The translations under genes were made by a program, and so were the position numbers. A DNA stretch of 64,000 nt from an uncultured Actinomycetes bacterium. Its GTDB lineage: Bacteria; Actinomycetota; Acidimicrobiia; Acidimicrobiales; Ilumatobacteraceae. The stretch covers positions 62,001 to 126,000 of the forward strand of contig CAIQJP010000087.1 of assembly GCA_903872155.1 (NCBI GenBank), in the 5' to 3' direction. The notes beneath the pieces were generated by a model. That model had not been told where the DNA came from. It made no database searches and saw only the letters and a program-made list of their open reading frames with translations. This document shows, piece by piece, positions 6,283-64,000 of the stretch (position 1 is its first letter; each line of letters starts with the position of its first letter).

Positions 6283-7971
6283 TTAGAGAACTGTGACGAC
6301 ACCAGTGGTGCCATTGACTTCAATCATTGCGCCATTAGGGATCCGTTGCGTGCCATCGGTGATGGAAACGACACACGGCACACCAAGTTCGCGACTGACG
6401 ATGACCGCGTGACTGATTTGTCCACCAACGTTCACGACGACTGCCGCGCTTGTCATAAACAACGGAGTCCAACTGGGGTCGGTGCAAGGTGCAACCAAAA
6501 TATCGCCAGGCTCGAGTTCGCCCGGATCGCCCGGATCAAGGACAACACGCGCAATTCCGCGAGCGACACCAGGTGAACCAGCAACACCAACAAGTGCATC
6601 ACCCGACTGTGCGAGCTTGACGACATGAGCATCTTTGCGTGCCCACTGGTTGAGCGGCGCAACAGTTGCATTGGCGATGATGAATGGCGGTTCAAGATCA
6701 AAAAGTTCGCGCCATTCGTTGTAGCGCTGCGTCAATGTGTTGGTGAACAAACTCGGGTTGGCGATGTAGTCATCGAGTTCACTATCAAGCACTTGGAAAA
6801 TGAGTTCGTCATGGCCGTGGCGACGACCAAGTTCGCGAAATGCCACGCGGGCTTCGTGCAATACGCGCACGATTGAAGTTTTGGTGCGTTCGCGGTGGGC
6901 CATCATTTTTCCGGCACCGAGTCCGAGGTCGAGCAGTGGCGCCACCTCGGGCTTGTCGGCCAATGTAATGCGCGCCTTGGCAATGAGTGCATCGCGCTGT
7001 GCAGCCTTCTCGCGATGACGTTCGTGTGGCGATTCGGCATCAGACTGCAAACGCACGCGATCGAGAGCAGCGAGCAAAAGTTGTGGGTGGGTTTCCCATG
7101 TTGGCGAACGCAAGTCCCATTCATCGGGTCCGCGACTACCAAATTCAACAATGAATTCATTCCACGCTGCGTTAAACGCCGAATTGATTCGCAACAGGCC
7201 GTCGTTGAGACCTGCGTTAAACGCAACAGTGAGTTGTGCATCGTTGTGCACCATGCGTGACAAATTCCAAAGTGCATAGTTGGCATCGGCCGAATCAACA
7301 TCGCCGATACTTGACAACAACGCCATCGGCAAACTCGGTTCGCCAATTGCTTCAGCCACAACTCCAAGTAGTCCGGGAGCAACGGCTGCGCTACTACCCG
7401 ACACAACATGTTGAGCAAACAAGTGCGGCAATTGTGACTGCACCAGACGCGCCCGTGCAACTAATTGGGCATCGGTGTAAGACGACAGGTCACCTCGCGA
7501 GGCTCGCAGTTCTGCGGCCTTGGCTTTGTCGGCATCGAGTTCGGGCCAGGCAACTCCGCTCATGATCCATGCGGTGTGAGCATCGATGCCCGCGGTGAGG
7601 TGTGGCTTTTCGTCGTCCGGATGTGCGACGTAAGCGGGCACATCGGGATGGTCGCCGAAGAAGGCTTGGTCGAGCGCGGCAACAGTGGCAGCGGGGTTGC
7701 GGACACCCTGCATACGAATCGCCGAAAGGTTGATATAGAAGTAGCCACCAAAGCAGGCGACCGATTCGGGATGTTGCGGGTTGAAGTCGGAGTCTTCGTA
7801 GGCGCCGATGCGAATGAGGCCAGCTTTGTAACCAGCAACAATTCCACCGTCCCAGCCAAACGACCAGCCAAGAGGGCTCACGGGGTCGGCAAGAACTTCA
7901 CCAGCGTTGGCCCGTGTGTAATGCGGAAATCTCTGGCTTGTTGGCCAGTCGGTAATCCATCGATCTTGCAT
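6283..7971 (-). CDS. PEP-utilizing-enzyme mobile-domain protein resembling rifampin phosphotransferase without its ATP-grasp domain
   Basis: A 562-residue protein. The last 90 residues are a PEP-utilizing-enzyme mobile (swivelling phosphohistidine) domain with G-S-P-G-V-A-R-G and the catalytic His in G-G-Q-I-S-H-A. The middle carries F-G-S-R-G-P-D-E-W-D-L-R-S-P-T-W, which resembles the substrate-binding region of rifampin-phosphotransferase-like enzymes. The N-terminal ATP-grasp domain of those enzymes is absent, so either a partner encoded elsewhere supplies it or the substrate chemistry differs. It is the first gene of an operon with an SDR and a molybdopterin oxidoreductase. A catabolic phosphorylation step is possible but is inference only. 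Confidence 0.75.
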   Translation of the reverse strand: MQDRWITDWPTSQRFPHYTRANAGEVLADPVSPLGWSFGWDGGIVAGYKAGLIRIGAYEDSDFNPQHPESVACFGGYFYINLSAIRMQGVRNPAATVAALDQAFFGDHPDVPAYVAHPDDEKPHLTAGIDAHTAWIMSGVAWPELDADKAKAAELRASRGDLSSYTDAQLVARARLVQSQLPHLFAQHVVSGSSAAVAPGLLGVVAEAIGEPSLPMALLSSIGDVDSADANYALWNLSRMVHNDAQLTVAFNAGLNDGLLRINSAFNAAWNEFIVEFGSRGPDEWDLRSPTWETHPQLLLAALDRVRLQSDAESPHERHREKAAQRDALIAKARITLADKPEVAPLLDLGLGAGKMMAHRERTKTSIVRVLHEARVAFRELGRRHGHDELIFQVLDSELDDYIANPSLFTNTLTQRYNEWRELFDLEPPFIIANATVAPLNQWARKDAHVVKLAQSGDALVGVAGSPGVARGIARVVLDPGDPGELEPGDILVAPCTDPSWTPLFMTSAAVVVNVGGQISHAVIVSRELGVPCVVSITDGTQRIPNGAMIEVNGTTGVVTVL

Positions 7972-8041
7972 ATCCGCCCCCTTACCCGTAGTAAGTATTC
8001 AGACTAGAGGCAAGGCAAGACCGATGATTGACGGAGATTGC

Positions 8042-8713
8042 TCAGAGCCACTTGGCTCGGAAGTATTCGCGGTCTTCAGCGACAAGGCGGCCGAAGTTTT
8101 CCGGTGGATTGGTTCGGATAGTGACACTGTCGGCATGATGACAGCGAGCTTGATGGGCAATGACTGCCCTTAATCCCGTTGTTTTTGTGACCCACAGCAA
8201 GACATCGTCGTCGCCGTACCACCACGTGAGGTTCTCGTCGAAGTTCCAGAATTTGACCAAGTCGCTACGCAGCATCATGGCAAAACCGGCCAATCCGCCC
8301 GTGCCGTCGTATCGCGAGCCACACGTGTTGAAAACCTGGCGGTCTTCTGTCATTTCAACAGTGGAGTAATTGGGACAAATGATGCCAATGGATGGATCGG
8401 TGCTTAGAGAACTCGCCAACGATGACAAACATTTGGGGCCCAGTCGCACGTCATCGTTGAGGAATGCGATGTGCGCATCGCGACCAACGGCCTCGATGCC
8501 ACGGTTCCACATGTATTGAATGCCGACACCTTCGGGGACAAGGATCTTGATGATGTGATCAGGAAGATCGGGGAGTGCGTCAAAGGCTGCCTGTCCGTCG
8601 GCGACGATGCAGATGGTGCCGACGGCTGGTTCGAGGCTGAGATCACTAAGAAGTTCGGCCAAACCCGTGAAATTCGATTTCGTCGGAATCACGACGTTCA
8701 CTGGGTTCGGCAT
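8042..8713 (-). CDS. Glycosyltransferase family 2 protein
   Basis: A 223-residue GT-A fold protein. It begins with a V-N-V-V-I-P-T-K strand, has the Asp-rich metal/nucleotide-sugar motif F-L-N-D-D-V near residue 92, and a second acidic patch W-W-Y-G-D-D-D near 167. Family 2 enzymes transfer sugars from nucleotide donors to acceptors such as surface glycans. It stands alone: no other glycan genes are adjacent, and it lies just downstream of a tRNA gene on the same strand. There is no membrane segment. The acceptor is unknown. Confidence 0.8.
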   Translation of the reverse strand: MPNPVNVVIPTKSNFTGLAELLSDLSLEPAVGTICIVADGQAAFDALPDLPDHIIKILVPEGVGIQYMWNRGIEAVGRDAHIAFLNDDVRLGPKCLSSLASSLSTDPSIGIICPNYSTVEMTEDRQVFNTCGSRYDGTGGLAGFAMMLRSDLVKFWNFDENLTWWYGDDDVLLWVTKTTGLRAVIAHQARCHHADSVTIRTNPPENFGRLVAEDREYFRAKWL

Positions 8714-54010: not shown

Positions 54011-58519
<4,509 letters not shown>

Positions 58520-58575: not shown

Positions 58576-59001
58576 TCACTTAGTGGGAGGATCTTTATAC
58601 ATCACGCCGGCGCGTGACACATTTTCGGTCCACTTCGAGCCGTCCCAATAGCGATACTCGTAACGGCCAGCAGGATCTTTGTACCAATCGGCTGGAACAT
58701 TAGGTACCGCGGATTGTGTGGCAACTGGAGTCGAGGTCGGTGCTGATGCAGGTGTTGGTGAGATAAATGTGGTGGGGCTTGCCGGTGTATTTGTCGCGGC
58801 CCAACCAGCTGAGTCATTGACTGGAGTCGGCTGAACTGGAGTAGTCGCGGTGACGCTAACTGGACGTGACAAGTACGCGACGATTTCGCCCGTCGCGACA
58901 ATACTGACAACTTGCCAACCTTGTGCTGACATCGACGTAAGTTGGGTCGCAAGATCGGCGGAGTTGTTTGCGGTTACTTTGAGTGATGTGAACTCGAGCA
59001 T
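58576..59001 (-). CDS. DUF2510-containing protein
   Basis: A 141-residue protein. The N-terminal 50 residues (L-A-T-Q-L-T-S-M-S-A-Q-G-W-Q-V-V-S-I) resemble the small DUF4177-type domain. A Pro/Thr/Ser-rich linker then leads to a DUF2510 motif, A-D-W-Y-K-D-P-A-G-R-x-E-Y-R-Y-W-D-G-S-K-W-T, widespread in actinobacteria and usually found on membrane-linked proteins. No transmembrane helix is visible here. It lies 24 bases after the ABC ATPase gene and may belong to that operon. Function unknown. Confidence 0.8.
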   Translation of the reverse strand: MLEFTSLKVTANNSADLATQLTSMSAQGWQVVSIVATGEIVAYLSRPVSVTATTPVQPTPVNDSAGWAATNTPASPTTFISPTPASAPTSTPVATQSAVPNVPADWYKDPAGRYEYRYWDGSKWTENVSRAGVMYKDPPTK

Positions 59002-59025: not shown

Positions 59026-59799
59026 TCAGTCTTGGGTAGCGGTGCCTTCAACAGCAACGAGCCCACGGGCTTCGGCTTGTGACGACTCACCATCGAACAC
59101 CAAAGAACCATCTCGTAAAGCAATCGTGCGGGCTGTACGTGAGACAAAGCTGAGTTCGTGGGTCGCAACGACAAGAGCGGCACCATCGGCTGAGGCTTGA
59201 TCGAAGAGATCGAGTAGCGCTTCTTTGCCGTCAGCATCAAGCCCAACGAAGGGTTCGTCGACAAGCATCAATTCAAACGGTCGAATGAACGCAATCGCGA
59301 TGGCCGCTTTTTGCTTGAGTCCACGACTAAATCGTGTTGGTAAATCATCGGCTCGTTCGTAGATGCCAAGTTGTCCCAAAAGATCTGCAGCCTTTTGTTC
59401 CCATGTGCCCATGTTGTGAAGGCGGGCGGTGTATTCAAGGTGTTCCCACACTGAAAGGTCGTCGTAGAAAGTTGGAGTATCGGCAAGATAACTCAGTTTG
59501 CTACGAGCATCCATTGAACCTGGCTCTTGTCCAAAGACGGTGATCGAACCCGATGCCGGCTCGAGTAATCCGGTCGCCATACGTAAGAAAGTTGTTTTGC
59601 CTGATCCGTTGTGGCCGATAAGTGCAACCTTTTCATGCTCTTCGATACGCAATGACAATGGATACAAAGCGGGACCGTCGCCGTAGTCCTTGGCGACATT
59701 GTTGGCAATGAGCGCTGCAGGTAAGACTGGTTCAGCTTTGCGACTTGTTGACGAAGCTTCACCCTTTTGTGCACTCGGTGGTTTGGGGTGGCGGCTCAT
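59026..59799 (-). CDS. ABC transporter ATP-binding protein
   Basis: A 257-residue ATPase with Walker A G-H-N-G-S-G-K-T-T near residue 58, Q-loop region Y-L-A-D-T, the signature F-S-R-G-L-K-Q-K near 154, Walker B L-M-L-V-D-E-P near 176 and H-loop A-T-H-E near 210. The first 25 residues are a charged extension before the domain. It overlaps the rhodanese-permease gene by ATGA and is surely its energy-coupling partner. The form is of the CcmA/ABC-2 type; direction is probably export. Confidence 0.92.
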   Translation of the reverse strand: MSRHPKPPSAQKGEASSTSRKAEPVLPAALIANNVAKDYGDGPALYPLSLRIEEHEKVALIGHNGSGKTTFLRMATGLLEPASGSITVFGQEPGSMDARSKLSYLADTPTFYDDLSVWEHLEYTARLHNMGTWEQKAADLLGQLGIYERADDLPTRFSRGLKQKAAIAIAFIRPFELMLVDEPFVGLDADGKEALLDLFDQASADGAALVVATHELSFVSRTARTIALRDGSLVFDGESSQAEARGLVAVEGTATQD

Positions 59800-62363
59800 G
59801 AGTTTCCTCCGGTACGAGTTTTCTGTCCGCGACTTTCGGTGGCGGCATTGTTTAAAGACTTCTTTATGTCATCGCGGAATCGCACCCATCCGCCAACAAT
59901 CATGGCCATTAGGGCGATGGCGATTGCAATACGAAGAGCTGGTGCTTCTGGCCCATTGCCTTTGGTGAGTGCCATACGCGCACCAACCATGGGCAAACTT
60001 CCGAGTACCGCAAGTACAACTGGCCAAATTGCTTTGATGAGACTCACAGTGCCAGCTACTTCGGGCGGCATCATGTTGGCTTGTGCGGTTGATGAAACTT
60101 GATCAGGTGCACCCGAAACAATGTTGATGGCAGCACCAGCGAGACCACCGATCAAAGAAGGAATGGCGCAGATTGCCGCGACTGACCACATATGTGGTTC
60201 AACGATTCCCATCGTGGCAACCATGATGCCTGCAATCGGAATCGCAATGGCCGCTGTTGGACTTAAGAGAGCCATATACATTGCACCGCGCAATTTTGGA
60301 TACGCATCAGTTCGTTCACCTTGATCAATCTCTTGAGCGAACGGTTCGCAAATTTCGAGTCCCAAAATGAACAATGCAAGTCCACTACCTAATGCCGCTG
60401 GCGTCGTTCCGTTATAAACCGCAACTTGGCATAATCCTGCAACGATGGTCAGTGTGACAATTCGTGTGATTCGGCTCAGTGGGAAACGCAATAAACCTTG
60501 CCAGCCGCGATTCCATTCAGCAGAGAAACGATTCTTTGTCTTCTTCCGCTTCATCTTGATCCACGGGCGATTGCGACTGCGCTCTTGACTGAGTTGGCGA
60601 CGTAACAAAGTAACGGTGCGAAGGTCTTGCAATGTCACCGCAAAACGCAATTGAGTGACGAGTGCTGAACGACGCGATAAAGCCTCAAGTGATTGACGAG
60701 CCAATAGAGCGAGGCCAATCACAACTAACAGGGCTGCGACAATAGATGGAATGAGTTCACTGACCCGCGTGCGTTCGCCCCACAACGCAAGTCCACCTTG
60801 CAAGTCGCCAGGTCCGGTGAGTTTTGAACTCGGAAGTGCAGTGGCGATTTGCCAAGCGATTAAAGCACCACCAATGACACTGGCCATCCAGCCCCGAAGT
60901 TTGAGTGAATGGGCACACAGTGCTGATCCAACAAAAAGCGCGCCAGCAGTGACGCCCCACAATGCACCCGACATTGCCCACGACATTCCAGAACCAGGTA
61001 AGCGACGGCCGGCTAATTGACCGGCAACAGCTCCTGCTCCGCCAGCAGCAAACATCGCTGAACGAAGTCGCTGAACGGCCGGACGAAGAAGTACTCGTTG
61101 GCGACTGACGGGGGCTAATAGAACGTGGCGTACATCGGCTTCTTCAATGGCCAGCGGTCCGCCGCGACTGCCCGAGCGAAGACCCATGGCGACCGCCAAG
61201 ATTCCAGCAAGACCAAGCCATGCGGGACCAAACTTGACGACATCAGCCGCCATTGAATCGGCGACTGGCTTGTCGGGGACAAGACCCGAGATAAACAGAA
61301 TTCCGCCACCGAAAATAAACGCCGCCAAGTACACGCGATAGAGCGCCTCAAACCATTCAACTTCTGCGAGTCGATTCTTTTGACGAGCACGACGCAGGGC
61401 ACGTACTGCATTTGAACCGATAGCAGACACTTGCGTGGCAAACGAATCTCGATCGGGTTGGTGAATCCCTAGTTCAACTGGTGTTTGGGGATCAGATGAC
61501 CAACCCGACCATGAGGCAACGAAAAGTCGTGGCGTCGCAAAGCCAGCATGTTCAATGGCCACGATGTTGGCGCACGCTGACACTCCGCTGCCGCAATATG
61601 CAATTACTTCATCGGCCAGATCAACACAGAGTGATTCGTAATGGCTGCGTAATTCGTCCGTTGTTTTAAATGTTGTTGTCTCTGAATTGATGACAGCATT
61701 CCACGGAGCGCTGAATGCACCTGGAATGTGGCCGGGTCGTGGATCTAGTTTTGCCGAGGCTTCAGTAACAACGCCTTGAAAACGATCGGCTGAACGCGCA
61801 TCAAGAATAATCCGTTGTGAAGTGATTGCGCCTTCGGCGACGATTGCTTCAAGATCGTGTTTGGTAACGAGTTGATCGGTGGGCCATTCAACAGTTGCGA
61901 ACGATGCCGCTTTGCCAGTTGTGGGTTTACCGGTTGCAAGCGGTGTTTCGTTGGCGCGTTGCCACGCACCAATGCCGCCATCGAGCACCGATGCTTTGCA
62001 ACCAAGCATGCGCAACATGACAACGAGTCGCGATGCTGTCATGCCACCGGTGTCGTCATAGGCGACAACGTATGAGTTGCTACCGATACCAAGACGGGAC
62101 ATTGCTCCGGCGAATGCCGATGGAGTAGGAAAAGGATGGCGACCATTTGTGGCGTCTGTTCGATCGGACGAAGCCAGGTCGCGATCGAGGTCAACAAAAA
62201 TCGCACCTGGAATGTGGCCCTCGGTGTAGGCCTTGCGACCATCACGTCCGTCGAGGTACCAACGTACGTCAGCTATGACAATGTCGGTACGGTCAAGAGC
62301 CTGCAGATCTTGGACTGAGATAACGATTGGGACTTTGGGCTCTAAATCGTTCAAGGCTTCCAT
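59796..62363 (-). CDS. Tandem rhodanese (sulfurtransferase) fused to an ABC transporter permease
   Basis: A fusion of about 855 residues. Residues 1 to about 300 hold two rhodanese domains: D-V-R-W-Y-L-D-G-R near the start, G-H-I-P-G-A in both, and the active-site loop Y-C-G-S-G-V-S-A-C near 265 with catalytic Cys, as in mercaptopyruvate/thiosulfate sulfurtransferases. From about residue 340 come roughly twelve hydrophobic helices with a basic cytoplasmic loop (K-M-K-R-K-K-T-K) in the middle, an ABC permease without recognised subfamily. The frame is unbroken between the parts. The ATPase gene overlaps its end. I prefer the ATG at 62363 (AGG five bases upstream); 62384 is possible. Confidence 0.85.
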   Translation of the reverse strand: MEALNDLEPKVPIVISVQDLQALDRTDIVIADVRWYLDGRDGRKAYTEGHIPGAIFVDLDRDLASSDRTDATNGRHPFPTPSAFAGAMSRLGIGSNSYVVAYDDTGGMTASRLVVMLRMLGCKASVLDGGIGAWQRANETPLATGKPTTGKAASFATVEWPTDQLVTKHDLEAIVAEGAITSQRIILDARSADRFQGVVTEASAKLDPRPGHIPGAFSAPWNAVINSETTTFKTTDELRSHYESLCVDLADEVIAYCGSGVSACANIVAIEHAGFATPRLFVASWSGWSSDPQTPVELGIHQPDRDSFATQVSAIGSNAVRALRRARQKNRLAEVEWFEALYRVYLAAFIFGGGILFISGLVPDKPVADSMAADVVKFGPAWLGLAGILAVAMGLRSGSRGGPLAIEEADVRHVLLAPVSRQRVLLRPAVQRLRSAMFAAGGAGAVAGQLAGRRLPGSGMSWAMSGALWGVTAGALFVGSALCAHSLKLRGWMASVIGGALIAWQIATALPSSKLTGPGDLQGGLALWGERTRVSELIPSIVAALLVVIGLALLARQSLEALSRRSALVTQLRFAVTLQDLRTVTLLRRQLSQERSRNRPWIKMKRKKTKNRFSAEWNRGWQGLLRFPLSRITRIVTLTIVAGLCQVAVYNGTTPAALGSGLALFILGLEICEPFAQEIDQGERTDAYPKLRGAMYMALLSPTAAIAIPIAGIMVATMGIVEPHMWSVAAICAIPSLIGGLAGAAINIVSGAPDQVSSTAQANMMPPEVAGTVSLIKAIWPVVLAVLGSLPMVGARMALTKGNGPEAPALRIAIAIALMAMIVGGWVRFRDDIKKSLNNAATESRGQKTRTGGNS

Positions 62364-62391
62364 TCTTGCCTGTAGGGCGGGCATACTGACA

Positions 62392-62937
62392 ATGATGGAT
62401 GTAAGAACTGTTGAACTTTTTACGTCTTTATTGGCGCTGATCGCGCTTGTTGGGGGAGTGTCGTACGCCCTCTTAGGACTTTGGATTTCTCCCCAGGCTT
62501 CGGCCGTCTCCGAGATTCGTCGATTGTCGTTGTGGTTGGCTTGGCTTGTCGCGGCTTGTGCAACTGCTGGAAGTCTGTATTTCAGCGAAGTTGCGCATTA
62601 TGTCCCGTGCCGGTTGTGCTGGTTCCAACGTATCTGTATGTACCCGTTGGCCGGAATTCTGCTGGTGGCGGCGATTCGTAAAGATCGCAATGCGCGCTGG
62701 TATGCCTTGCCGATGTTGGTCGCCGGGGTGTGCTTGTCGGTCTATCACTATCTCATTGAATGGAAACCATCTTTGGGCGAAGGTGCTTGCGGAATCGGAC
62801 CGTCGTGCACCGACGTCTGGTTCCGACGTATGGGATTTGTCACGCTGGCCTTCATGGCCCTGAGCGGATTTATCGCGATTGCCGCACTACTTTTTGTTCA
62901 GCCGCATACACCACATGACCAGTTATCCGAGAAGTGA
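62392..62937 (+). CDS. DsbB-family disulfide bond formation membrane protein
   Basis: A 181-residue membrane protein with four or five helices. The quinone-side motif H-Y-V-P-C-R-L-C-W-F-Q-R gives the redox-active C-x-x-C near residue 70; a second pair, C-G-I-G-P-S-C, lies in the outer loop near 130, as in DsbB/BdbC. It should reoxidise an extracytoplasmic thiol oxidase. Two tandem ATG codons start it, only 28 bases from the divergent rhodanese-permease start. The thioredoxin gene follows after seven bases. Confidence 0.9.
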   Translation: MMDVRTVELFTSLLALIALVGGVSYALLGLWISPQASAVSEIRRLSLWLAWLVAACATAGSLYFSEVAHYVPCRLCWFQRICMYPLAGILLVAAIRKDRNARWYALPMLVAGVCLSVYHYLIEWKPSLGEGACGIGPSCTDVWFRRMGFVTLAFMALSGFIAIAALLFVQPHTPHDQLSEK

Positions 62938-62944
62938 GCAGAAA

Positions 62945-63604
62945 ATGGCCAAGCAACCCATCAAGAAGTCAAACAACAACAAGTTGGTTCTTGGCGGAGT
63001 CACGCTTGCGATAGTGATAGCTCTGGTGATCGCGATTGTCGCGGGTGGCTCAAAAGATCCGTCGAACACACCAATGAGTGATGGGCCGGTTTCTGCTGGT
63101 GAAAATCAACCAGTTGAAGTCGTTGGCGACGCGCTTGAAGCATTGCCTGAAACAGGAACTGATCCTTCTATTGGTCTCGTGGCTCCAACATTGAACGGAC
63201 ACACATTTGACGGTTCGAATCTGTCAGTCACACCGGGTGATGGCAAGCCGTACATGGTTGTCTTCCTTGCGCATTGGTGTCCTCATTGCAATCGTGAAGT
63301 TCCACGCCTCATTGAATGGCAAGCATCGGGTGCCATTCCGGCAGATTTGCAAATCATCGGTGTCAGCACTGCTGTTGCGAGTGACCGTCCGAACTACCCA
63401 CCATCACAGTGGGTCGTCGATAAAGCTTGGCCGTGGCCAGTTATTGCCGACTCCGAAGCAATGGATGCAGCAAACGCGTATGGAGTTTCGGGATTCCCAT
63501 TCTTCACAATCGTTGGTGCGGATGGAAAAGTGAAAGTACGTGCCTCAGGCGAAATTGAAATTGATCAGCTCTCGCAGATCGTGAACGCTGCACTCGCTAA
63601 CTAA
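62945..63604 (+). CDS. Membrane-anchored thioredoxin-fold protein (TlpA/DsbA-like)
   Basis: A 219-residue protein with a basic N-terminus, a single helix (L-A-I-V-I-A-L-V-I-A-I-V-A-G-G) and an external thioredoxin fold. The active site is A-H-W-C-P-H-C-N near residue 115 and the cis-Pro loop is G-F-P-F-F near 183. A C-P-H-C centre is the DsbA-type oxidising form, and the upstream DsbB-like gene fits as its oxidase. A GAG-rich site precedes the ATG at 62945; a longer frame would overlap dsbB. Confidence 0.88.
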   Translation: MAKQPIKKSNNNKLVLGGVTLAIVIALVIAIVAGGSKDPSNTPMSDGPVSAGENQPVEVVGDALEALPETGTDPSIGLVAPTLNGHTFDGSNLSVTPGDGKPYMVVFLAHWCPHCNREVPRLIEWQASGAIPADLQIIGVSTAVASDRPNYPPSQWVVDKAWPWPVIADSEAMDAANAYGVSGFPFFTIVGADGKVKVRASGEIEIDQLSQIVNAALAN

Positions 63605-63611
63605 GTATCTG

Positions 63612-64000
63612 CTAGTTCAGTTGTCGAGCGGCTTGTTCGGCCAGAACTAAAACTTCACGTAGCGGTATCCCTAAAGCGCGAGCAGCGCTCACAGCATCAT
63701 CGTTTTCAACTTTGATTCGGCCACTACCAATTTTGAGACGGATTTTGTGACCGTGAACGGTGACAGACTTTTCTTCGCGAGTTTGAGGCCAACGTTGAAT
63801 GACCGAACCGCGCAAACCGAGAGTGCCCGTTTCAGCAACGAGCACGGCGGAGATTTTTTCGGTGAGTGCAAGATCGCATAACGCGTGAACCGTAAATGCT
63901 GGTCGACCTTTCTTCATGACAATAGGTGTAGCCCATGCATCATGTGCCCCTGCATTCAGCAATTCAGCAATGGTGTGGGCGATGACTTCGCCGGACACAT
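63612..64000 (-). CDS. larC: Nickel-pincer cofactor biosynthesis protein LarC, C-terminal part (5' end off the window)
   Basis: The last 129 codons of LarC, which inserts nickel into the pincer cofactor of lactate racemase-type enzymes. The visible part starts V-S-G-E-V-I-A, consistent with D-D-x-S-G-E in the family. It continues with L-N-A-G-A-H-D-A-W, P-I-V-M-K-K-G-R-P-A, and V-A-E-T-G-T-L-G-L-R. The frame is open to the window edge, so the GTG near the end is not the true start. Other lar genes are not visible. Confidence 0.85.
   Translation of the reverse strand, partial: VSGEVIAHTIAELLNAGAHDAWATPIVMKKGRPAFTVHALCDLALTEKISAVLVAETGTLGLRGSVIQRWPQTREEKSVTVHGHKIRLKIGSGRIKVENDDAVSAARALGIPLREVLVLAEQAARQLN

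Follow-up and report, generated by a model that had tools for sequence, protein, structure and literature searches.

The window, a 64,000-nt stretch of DNA from a member of the Ilumatobacteraceae, carries an open reading frame of 862 codons in which a tandem rhodanese and an ABC permease are encoded as one polypeptide (Table 1). A preliminary description had claimed a two-domain sulfurtransferase with a CGSGV loop in one frame with a permease of about twelve helices, as well as an ATPase gene overlapping its end. Both claims have held up: the open frame, the Pfam matches and the structural models agree on the composite, and the ATPase start overlaps the permease stop by 4 nt. The span given at that time, 59796–62363, had the right frame and began at the second in-frame ATG (62363), which is residue 8 of the fusion; the open frame runs on to 62384. 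The true start may nevertheless lie further in, at residue 8 or later, since the approximately 10 nt between the fusion start and the ATG taken as the start of the divergent dsbB gene are tight for two promoters and alignments to several relatives begin only near residue 33.

Table 1. Features of the fusion locus in window coordinates
Feature	Position	Strand	Basis
MBL-like / SCP2 (Rv3818-like) / Rieske protein, conserved downstream neighbour	56963..58519	-	Pfam, locus comparison
DUF2510 protein, conserved downstream neighbour	58576..59001	-	Pfam, locus comparison
ABC ATPase, 257 aa	59026..59799	-	PF00005
Fusion gene, 862 aa: tandem rhodanese and ABC permease	59796..62384	-	Open frame, Pfam, genus comparison
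Permease half, residues 329-862, ~12 helices in two halves	59799..61400	-	Models, structure searches
Linker, residues about 307-328 (~22 aa)	61401..61466	-	Alignment
Tandem (two-domain) MST-type sulfurtransferase half, residues 1-306	61467..62384	-	Pfam, NCBIfam, PDB match, model
Catalytic Cys264 codon of CGSGVSAC	61593..61595	-	Sequence; Cys in 27/27 rows
DsbB-type disulfide oxidoreductase, divergent neighbour	62395..62937	+	Pfam; ATG start chosen inside longer frame
TlpA/ResA-like thioredoxin-fold protein, divergent neighbour	62945..63604	+	Pfam, NCBIfam; ATG start chosen

The N-terminal half was recognized by Pfam as two rhodanese stretches (7e-23 in the fusion protein), both of which passed the PF00581 cut-off of 22.2 bits in a search of the genome (48.3 and 41.9 bits). 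The tandem occupies residues about 28–306, and residues 1–15 were modelled with low confidence. The active-site loop lies in the second domain, where Cys264 is a cysteine in every row that covers it and Cys271 is a cysteine in 28 of 28. A CGSGV loop marks the 3-mercaptopyruvate sulfurtransferase (MST) type, and the top relatives in the PDB are 3-mercaptopyruvate sulfurtransferases (1urh, E 1.4e-32; 4jgt, 8e-32). Because the match to the SseA equivalog model (NCBIfam NF008557) reached 149.3 bits of the 250 set as its cut-off, the sequence points to an MST-type sulfurtransferase and not to a proven MST. Three other places in the same genome (97% complete) match PF00581; by eye, one reads as a rhodanese carrying a ThiF-like part, another as a single domain of 111 aa and the third as TrhO-like. 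Since all three read as single-rhodanese proteins, the fusion appears to carry the only tandem sulfurtransferase found in the genome. The half is probably an active enzyme, with Cys264 being loaded with sulfane sulfur that would then be passed to a soluble acceptor.

Sequence searches with the permease half returned an ABC_export (PF16962) match at residues 352–446 of 16.5–17 bits, under the cut-off of 29.7, with no row for DUF6297 (PF19814) in the Pfam search and only chance-level rows in the PDB (E 3.7 and worse). Among 40 relatives of the permease, Pfam assigned 14 to DUF6297, 13 to ABC_export and one to EcsB at E 0.1 or better. An AlphaFold2 model of the permease alone was fair (pLDDT 83.7, pTM 0.80), and the models show two groups of approximately six long helices, about 12 altogether. 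Foldseek gave no match to the permease model at E 0.001; its first rows were MATE proteins (E 0.014), with 8k1p at rank 6 (E 0.16). On structural realignment the first 30 rows were ABC transporters of the ABC-2/ABCG type, at Z values of 7.8–10.3 that are under the approximately 13 asked by the tool for helical bundles and so not decisive, while MATE proteins appeared from Z 6.5 down. The second permease half matched 7f02_B (Z 10.3), a CcmABCD entry that we take to be CcmB, and ABCG proteins matched either half. Most of the permease was spanned by 8k1p (Z 8.5, 353 residues, rmsd 7.3), one of the entries 8k1m–8k1p that presumably represent the mycobacterial efflux pump Rv1217c-1218c.

Despite the low Z values, an ABC exporter is the natural reading of these models because an ATPase adjoins the permease. 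The ATPase matches PF00005 (ABC_tran) at 89 bits, and an ATPase match adjoins the permease in 39 of the 40 loci fetched (L119–L158; L142 is cut). Together, the two would form an ABC-2/ABCG-like transporter for which export is the predicted direction, probably as one pseudo-dimeric permease with two ATPases. In the full-length model, the rhodanese domain precedes the N-terminal permease helices; its placement is uncertain (pTM 0.54), and residues 336–356 fall under pLDDT 50.

The joining of the two halves is real and is conserved through the genus. When the same architecture was sought in other genomes, the fusion was matched in 22 of the 24 genus genomes (own included), and in 20 of the 24 the junction is read through in one open frame, at 53–98% identity to the window. 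The other two matching genomes are cut by contig ends, at residue 303 in G216 and residue 282 in G206, and the two that gave no match are 68% and 87% complete. Aligned rows of the genus that extend over the junction show no stop there. In 11 genus pairs, dN/dS was 0.064–0.14 for the rhodanese and 0.033–0.18 for the permease; values for the linker (0.06 to 1.4, two undefined) rest on 24–26 codons and are not counted as evidence. Neither of the two outcomes that the preliminary description had named as fatal came true: the junction is no frameshift or misassembly, and close relatives do not all have the split form, being fused in this genus and split in others. Four of the metagenome records that carry the fusion (L075, L076, L079 and L102) are titled Bifidobacterium breve, a misfit with close relatives that are titled Actinomycetota, acIV or Acidimicrobiales.

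A search of 200 family genomes outside the genus gave matches in 139, and among the matches listed there was none with both halves in one open frame. The rhodanese lies beside the permease in at least 28 genomes of other family genera among those matches, of which 19 show two matches on one contig and nine (eight of g150, and G229) show one match with internal stops. In half of the 14 split loci fetched, the rhodanese stop and the permease start overlap by 4 nt. Two more of the 14, both g150, keep the halves in the same frame with a TAG followed 12 nt on by an ATG, and a single in-frame stop is also found in eight g150 loci (L062–L069). In the split genera, the region matching the linker of the fusion holds both the stop of the rhodanese and the start of the permease. 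Extending the search to 247 genomes of the class (127 with a match, at most three candidates scored per genome) found both halves in one frame in only two among the matches listed, and both of these belong to this genus.

The permease and ATPase also occur without an adjacent rhodanese. This was the arrangement in six of the first 20 family loci fetched (in g135, g136 and g153); in one of them, L132, just 236 nt of contig precede the permease match. A second batch, hand-picked like the other fetched loci from the listed permease matches, showed it in 20 of 20: two further family loci (g5; L139 and L140) and 18 other loci of the order, where the permease has no rhodanese match and the ATPase is in the stretch in 17 (L142 being a short contig). 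Within the phylum, PF19814 matched 20 of 296 genomes, 10 of them over the cut-off; this result concerns the permease family only and has no bearing on fusions.

Trees of 51 rows each were built for the permease and the rhodanese, with one g150 genome entered twice (as L062 and L137). All 16 fused permeases form one clade (100/99), as do the 16 fused rhodaneses (98/96). Rhodanese rows that are fused or permease-linked, 35 in all, likewise group together (95/90), to the exclusion of 16 stand-alone rows of the order. The composite gene was thus most likely made once, and the simplest account of the sequences would be one adjacency event and one fusion event, plus losses. The in-frame TAG state of g150 suggests itself as the direct ancestor of the fusion; this is unsupported, as g150 groups with the other split genera in both trees (weakly in the rhodanese tree, 84/72) and is not the sister of the fused genus.

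All 22 family loci L119–L140 have matches to both the DUF2510 protein and the MBL/SCP2/Rieske protein, the latter uniting MBL-like, Rv3818-like SCP2 and Rieske parts in one chain; in L126, a DUF2510 match at 7633–8139 lies between the ATPase and Rieske genes on the opposite strand. DsbB was matched in 12 of 20 family loci (L119–L138). Beyond DsbB and TlpA lie pheA and the nickel-pincer cofactor genes larC and larB (63612–63998 and L159:1613–3633); of these, larC2 was named by family match, and the names larB and pheA are a reading by eye. In several other genera, larC lies directly before the rhodanese gene, and in one g150 genome (L137:10876–11844) larC and larB match in short pieces only, as if decayed. 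A link of the rhodanese to the nickel-pincer cofactor is weak, because g135 and g136 have larBC with no rhodanese by the permease and because, among 20 fetched loci of rhodaneses unlinked to this permease, larBC occurs only in L168, about 3 kb off.

The best reading of the locus is a clade-specific operon fusion that grew from two neighbouring genes. In an ancestor of part of the family, an MST-type sulfurtransferase gene would have come to lie immediately ahead of a resident ABC transporter's permease gene, with overlapping stop and start in many genera. In one genus the boundary would have been lost to give a single polypeptide, whose sulfurtransferase domain is predicted to lie in the cytoplasm, N-terminal to the first permease helix. 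It is fairly probable that this fusion was made once and that each half keeps its own job, with the fusion providing fixed 1:1 expression and membrane tethering. Several observations count against that explanation, including the rate covariation seen in split loci (below), an adjacency that has lasted through many genera, the DsbB-type gene adjoining in 12 of the 20 family loci, and the keeping of the fusion through a genus in which identity drops to 53%.

An artefact is very improbable, whether from a frameshift, from misassembly, or from internal initiation that yields two proteins out of a single frame. The genomes are drafts, mostly metagenome-assembled, and GTG and TTG codons are scattered through the linker region of many of the 17 genus rows examined, one of which has an ATG there. 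Nevertheless, no in-frame start codon is common to all 17, and frameshift and misassembly are ruled out by the same open frame in 20 genomes and the stop-free junction. Quite a small chance can be given to a regulatory use, in which the rhodanese domain would sense sulfane sulfur or redox state through Cys264 and Cys271 and gate the pump. In favour of such gating, both cysteines are invariant and the domain is modelled ahead of the permease helices, but its placement in that model is uncertain and the fused loci show no covariation between the halves. Moreover, the second cysteine is nothing special to the fusion, since the 4jgt alignment shows that human MST has it too.

More weight attaches to a coupled system, which is unlikely but conceivable: the sulfurtransferase would make the exporter's cargo (thiocyanate, a persulfide or a sulfurated thiol) or hand sulfur on, with the product channelled to the pump. 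The preliminary description had likewise suggested sulfur transfer coupled to transport, and that idea went unsupported. Permease and ATPase persist with no rhodanese beside them in the fetched loci of the order and in some genera of the family, and no permease cysteine is invariant in either 29 or 40 rows, the best kept (position 652) being Cys in 20 of 29. Known ABC-2/ABCG-type pumps, moreover, mostly carry larger, lipophilic cargo. Rate covariation was mixed in a small test with 13 fused loci and 18 split ones (partial r, the Rieske gene serving as single control; 2000 permutations). The loci were hand-picked; each carried at least part of all four genes, and close relatives occur among the split ones. 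In the fused loci, the rhodanese did not covary with the permease (0.11, P 0.18) or the ATPase (0.04, P 0.37), whereas permease and ATPase gave 0.95. In the split loci, rhodanese–permease and rhodanese–ATPase values were 0.64 and 0.54, and in all 31 loci 0.34 and 0.43; none of the 2000 permutations reached any of these four values. The covariation in split loci could reflect a real functional linkage, though a single control gene corrects only in part for shared phylogeny. Coupling of the halves is therefore possible, and it also draws on the long-lived gene adjacency that ended in fusion, on the DsbB and TlpA neighbours, and on YgaP, a rhodanese with a membrane domain for which the available text proposes SCN- export (PMC4730233).

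It is more doubtful still that the protein is an ATP-driven pump with a built-in sulfurtransferase, its MST domain making or loading a sulfane-sulfur product and passing it to the exporter. If that is true, reactive sulfur or a cyanide product would be removed at the expense of energy. Such removal has so far been proposed for the small membrane rhodanese YgaP, in what is accessible of that report (PMC4730233), and the pump would be its ATP-driven analogue. Coupled halves would give a direct handle on cellular export of reactive sulfur; should they be uncoupled, the gene would cleanly illustrate how an operon fusion can tether a metabolic enzyme to the membrane. In either case, the likely evolutionary stages are visible in living relatives as separate, neighbouring, overlapping, same-frame with one stop, and fused genes.

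The sulfurtransferase–ABC permease combination appears to be a new domain architecture, in that the open-licence literature searched yielded no description of a rhodanese built into an ABC permease; to that extent, the preliminary remark that no described system of this kind was known is supported. The N-terminal half resembles E. coli SseA (1urh) and human MST (4jgt), which likewise have two rhodanese domains, a CGSGV loop and a DAR...RF motif, but these stand alone as enzymes and the fusion half is under the SseA equivalog cut-off. The permease fold in turn aligns in the structural comparison, at Z values that are not decisive for helical proteins, with the 8k1m–8k1p pump and other ABC-2/ABCG-like transporters (7f02_B, 7znq_y, which is presumably NosY, ABCG2 and ABCG5/G8), all of which lack a rhodanese and share 13% aligned identity or less. 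Relatives of the permease match the DUF6297 and ABC_export families, while the window permease itself is under the cut-off of the latter and without a row for the former. The accessible portion of a survey of archaeal fusions mentions a fusion of rhodanese and NirA along with numerous ABC-2 composites, with no mention there of a rhodanese–ABC permease (PMC11237513). The nearest precedent is E. coli YgaP, in which, according to the part of the source available, a cytosolic rhodanese is connected by a flexible linker to a membrane domain, much as in the fusion (PMC4730233). YgaP is described there as having one rhodanese domain and two helices, whereas the fusion joins two rhodanese domains to a 12-helix ABC permease with its ATPase.
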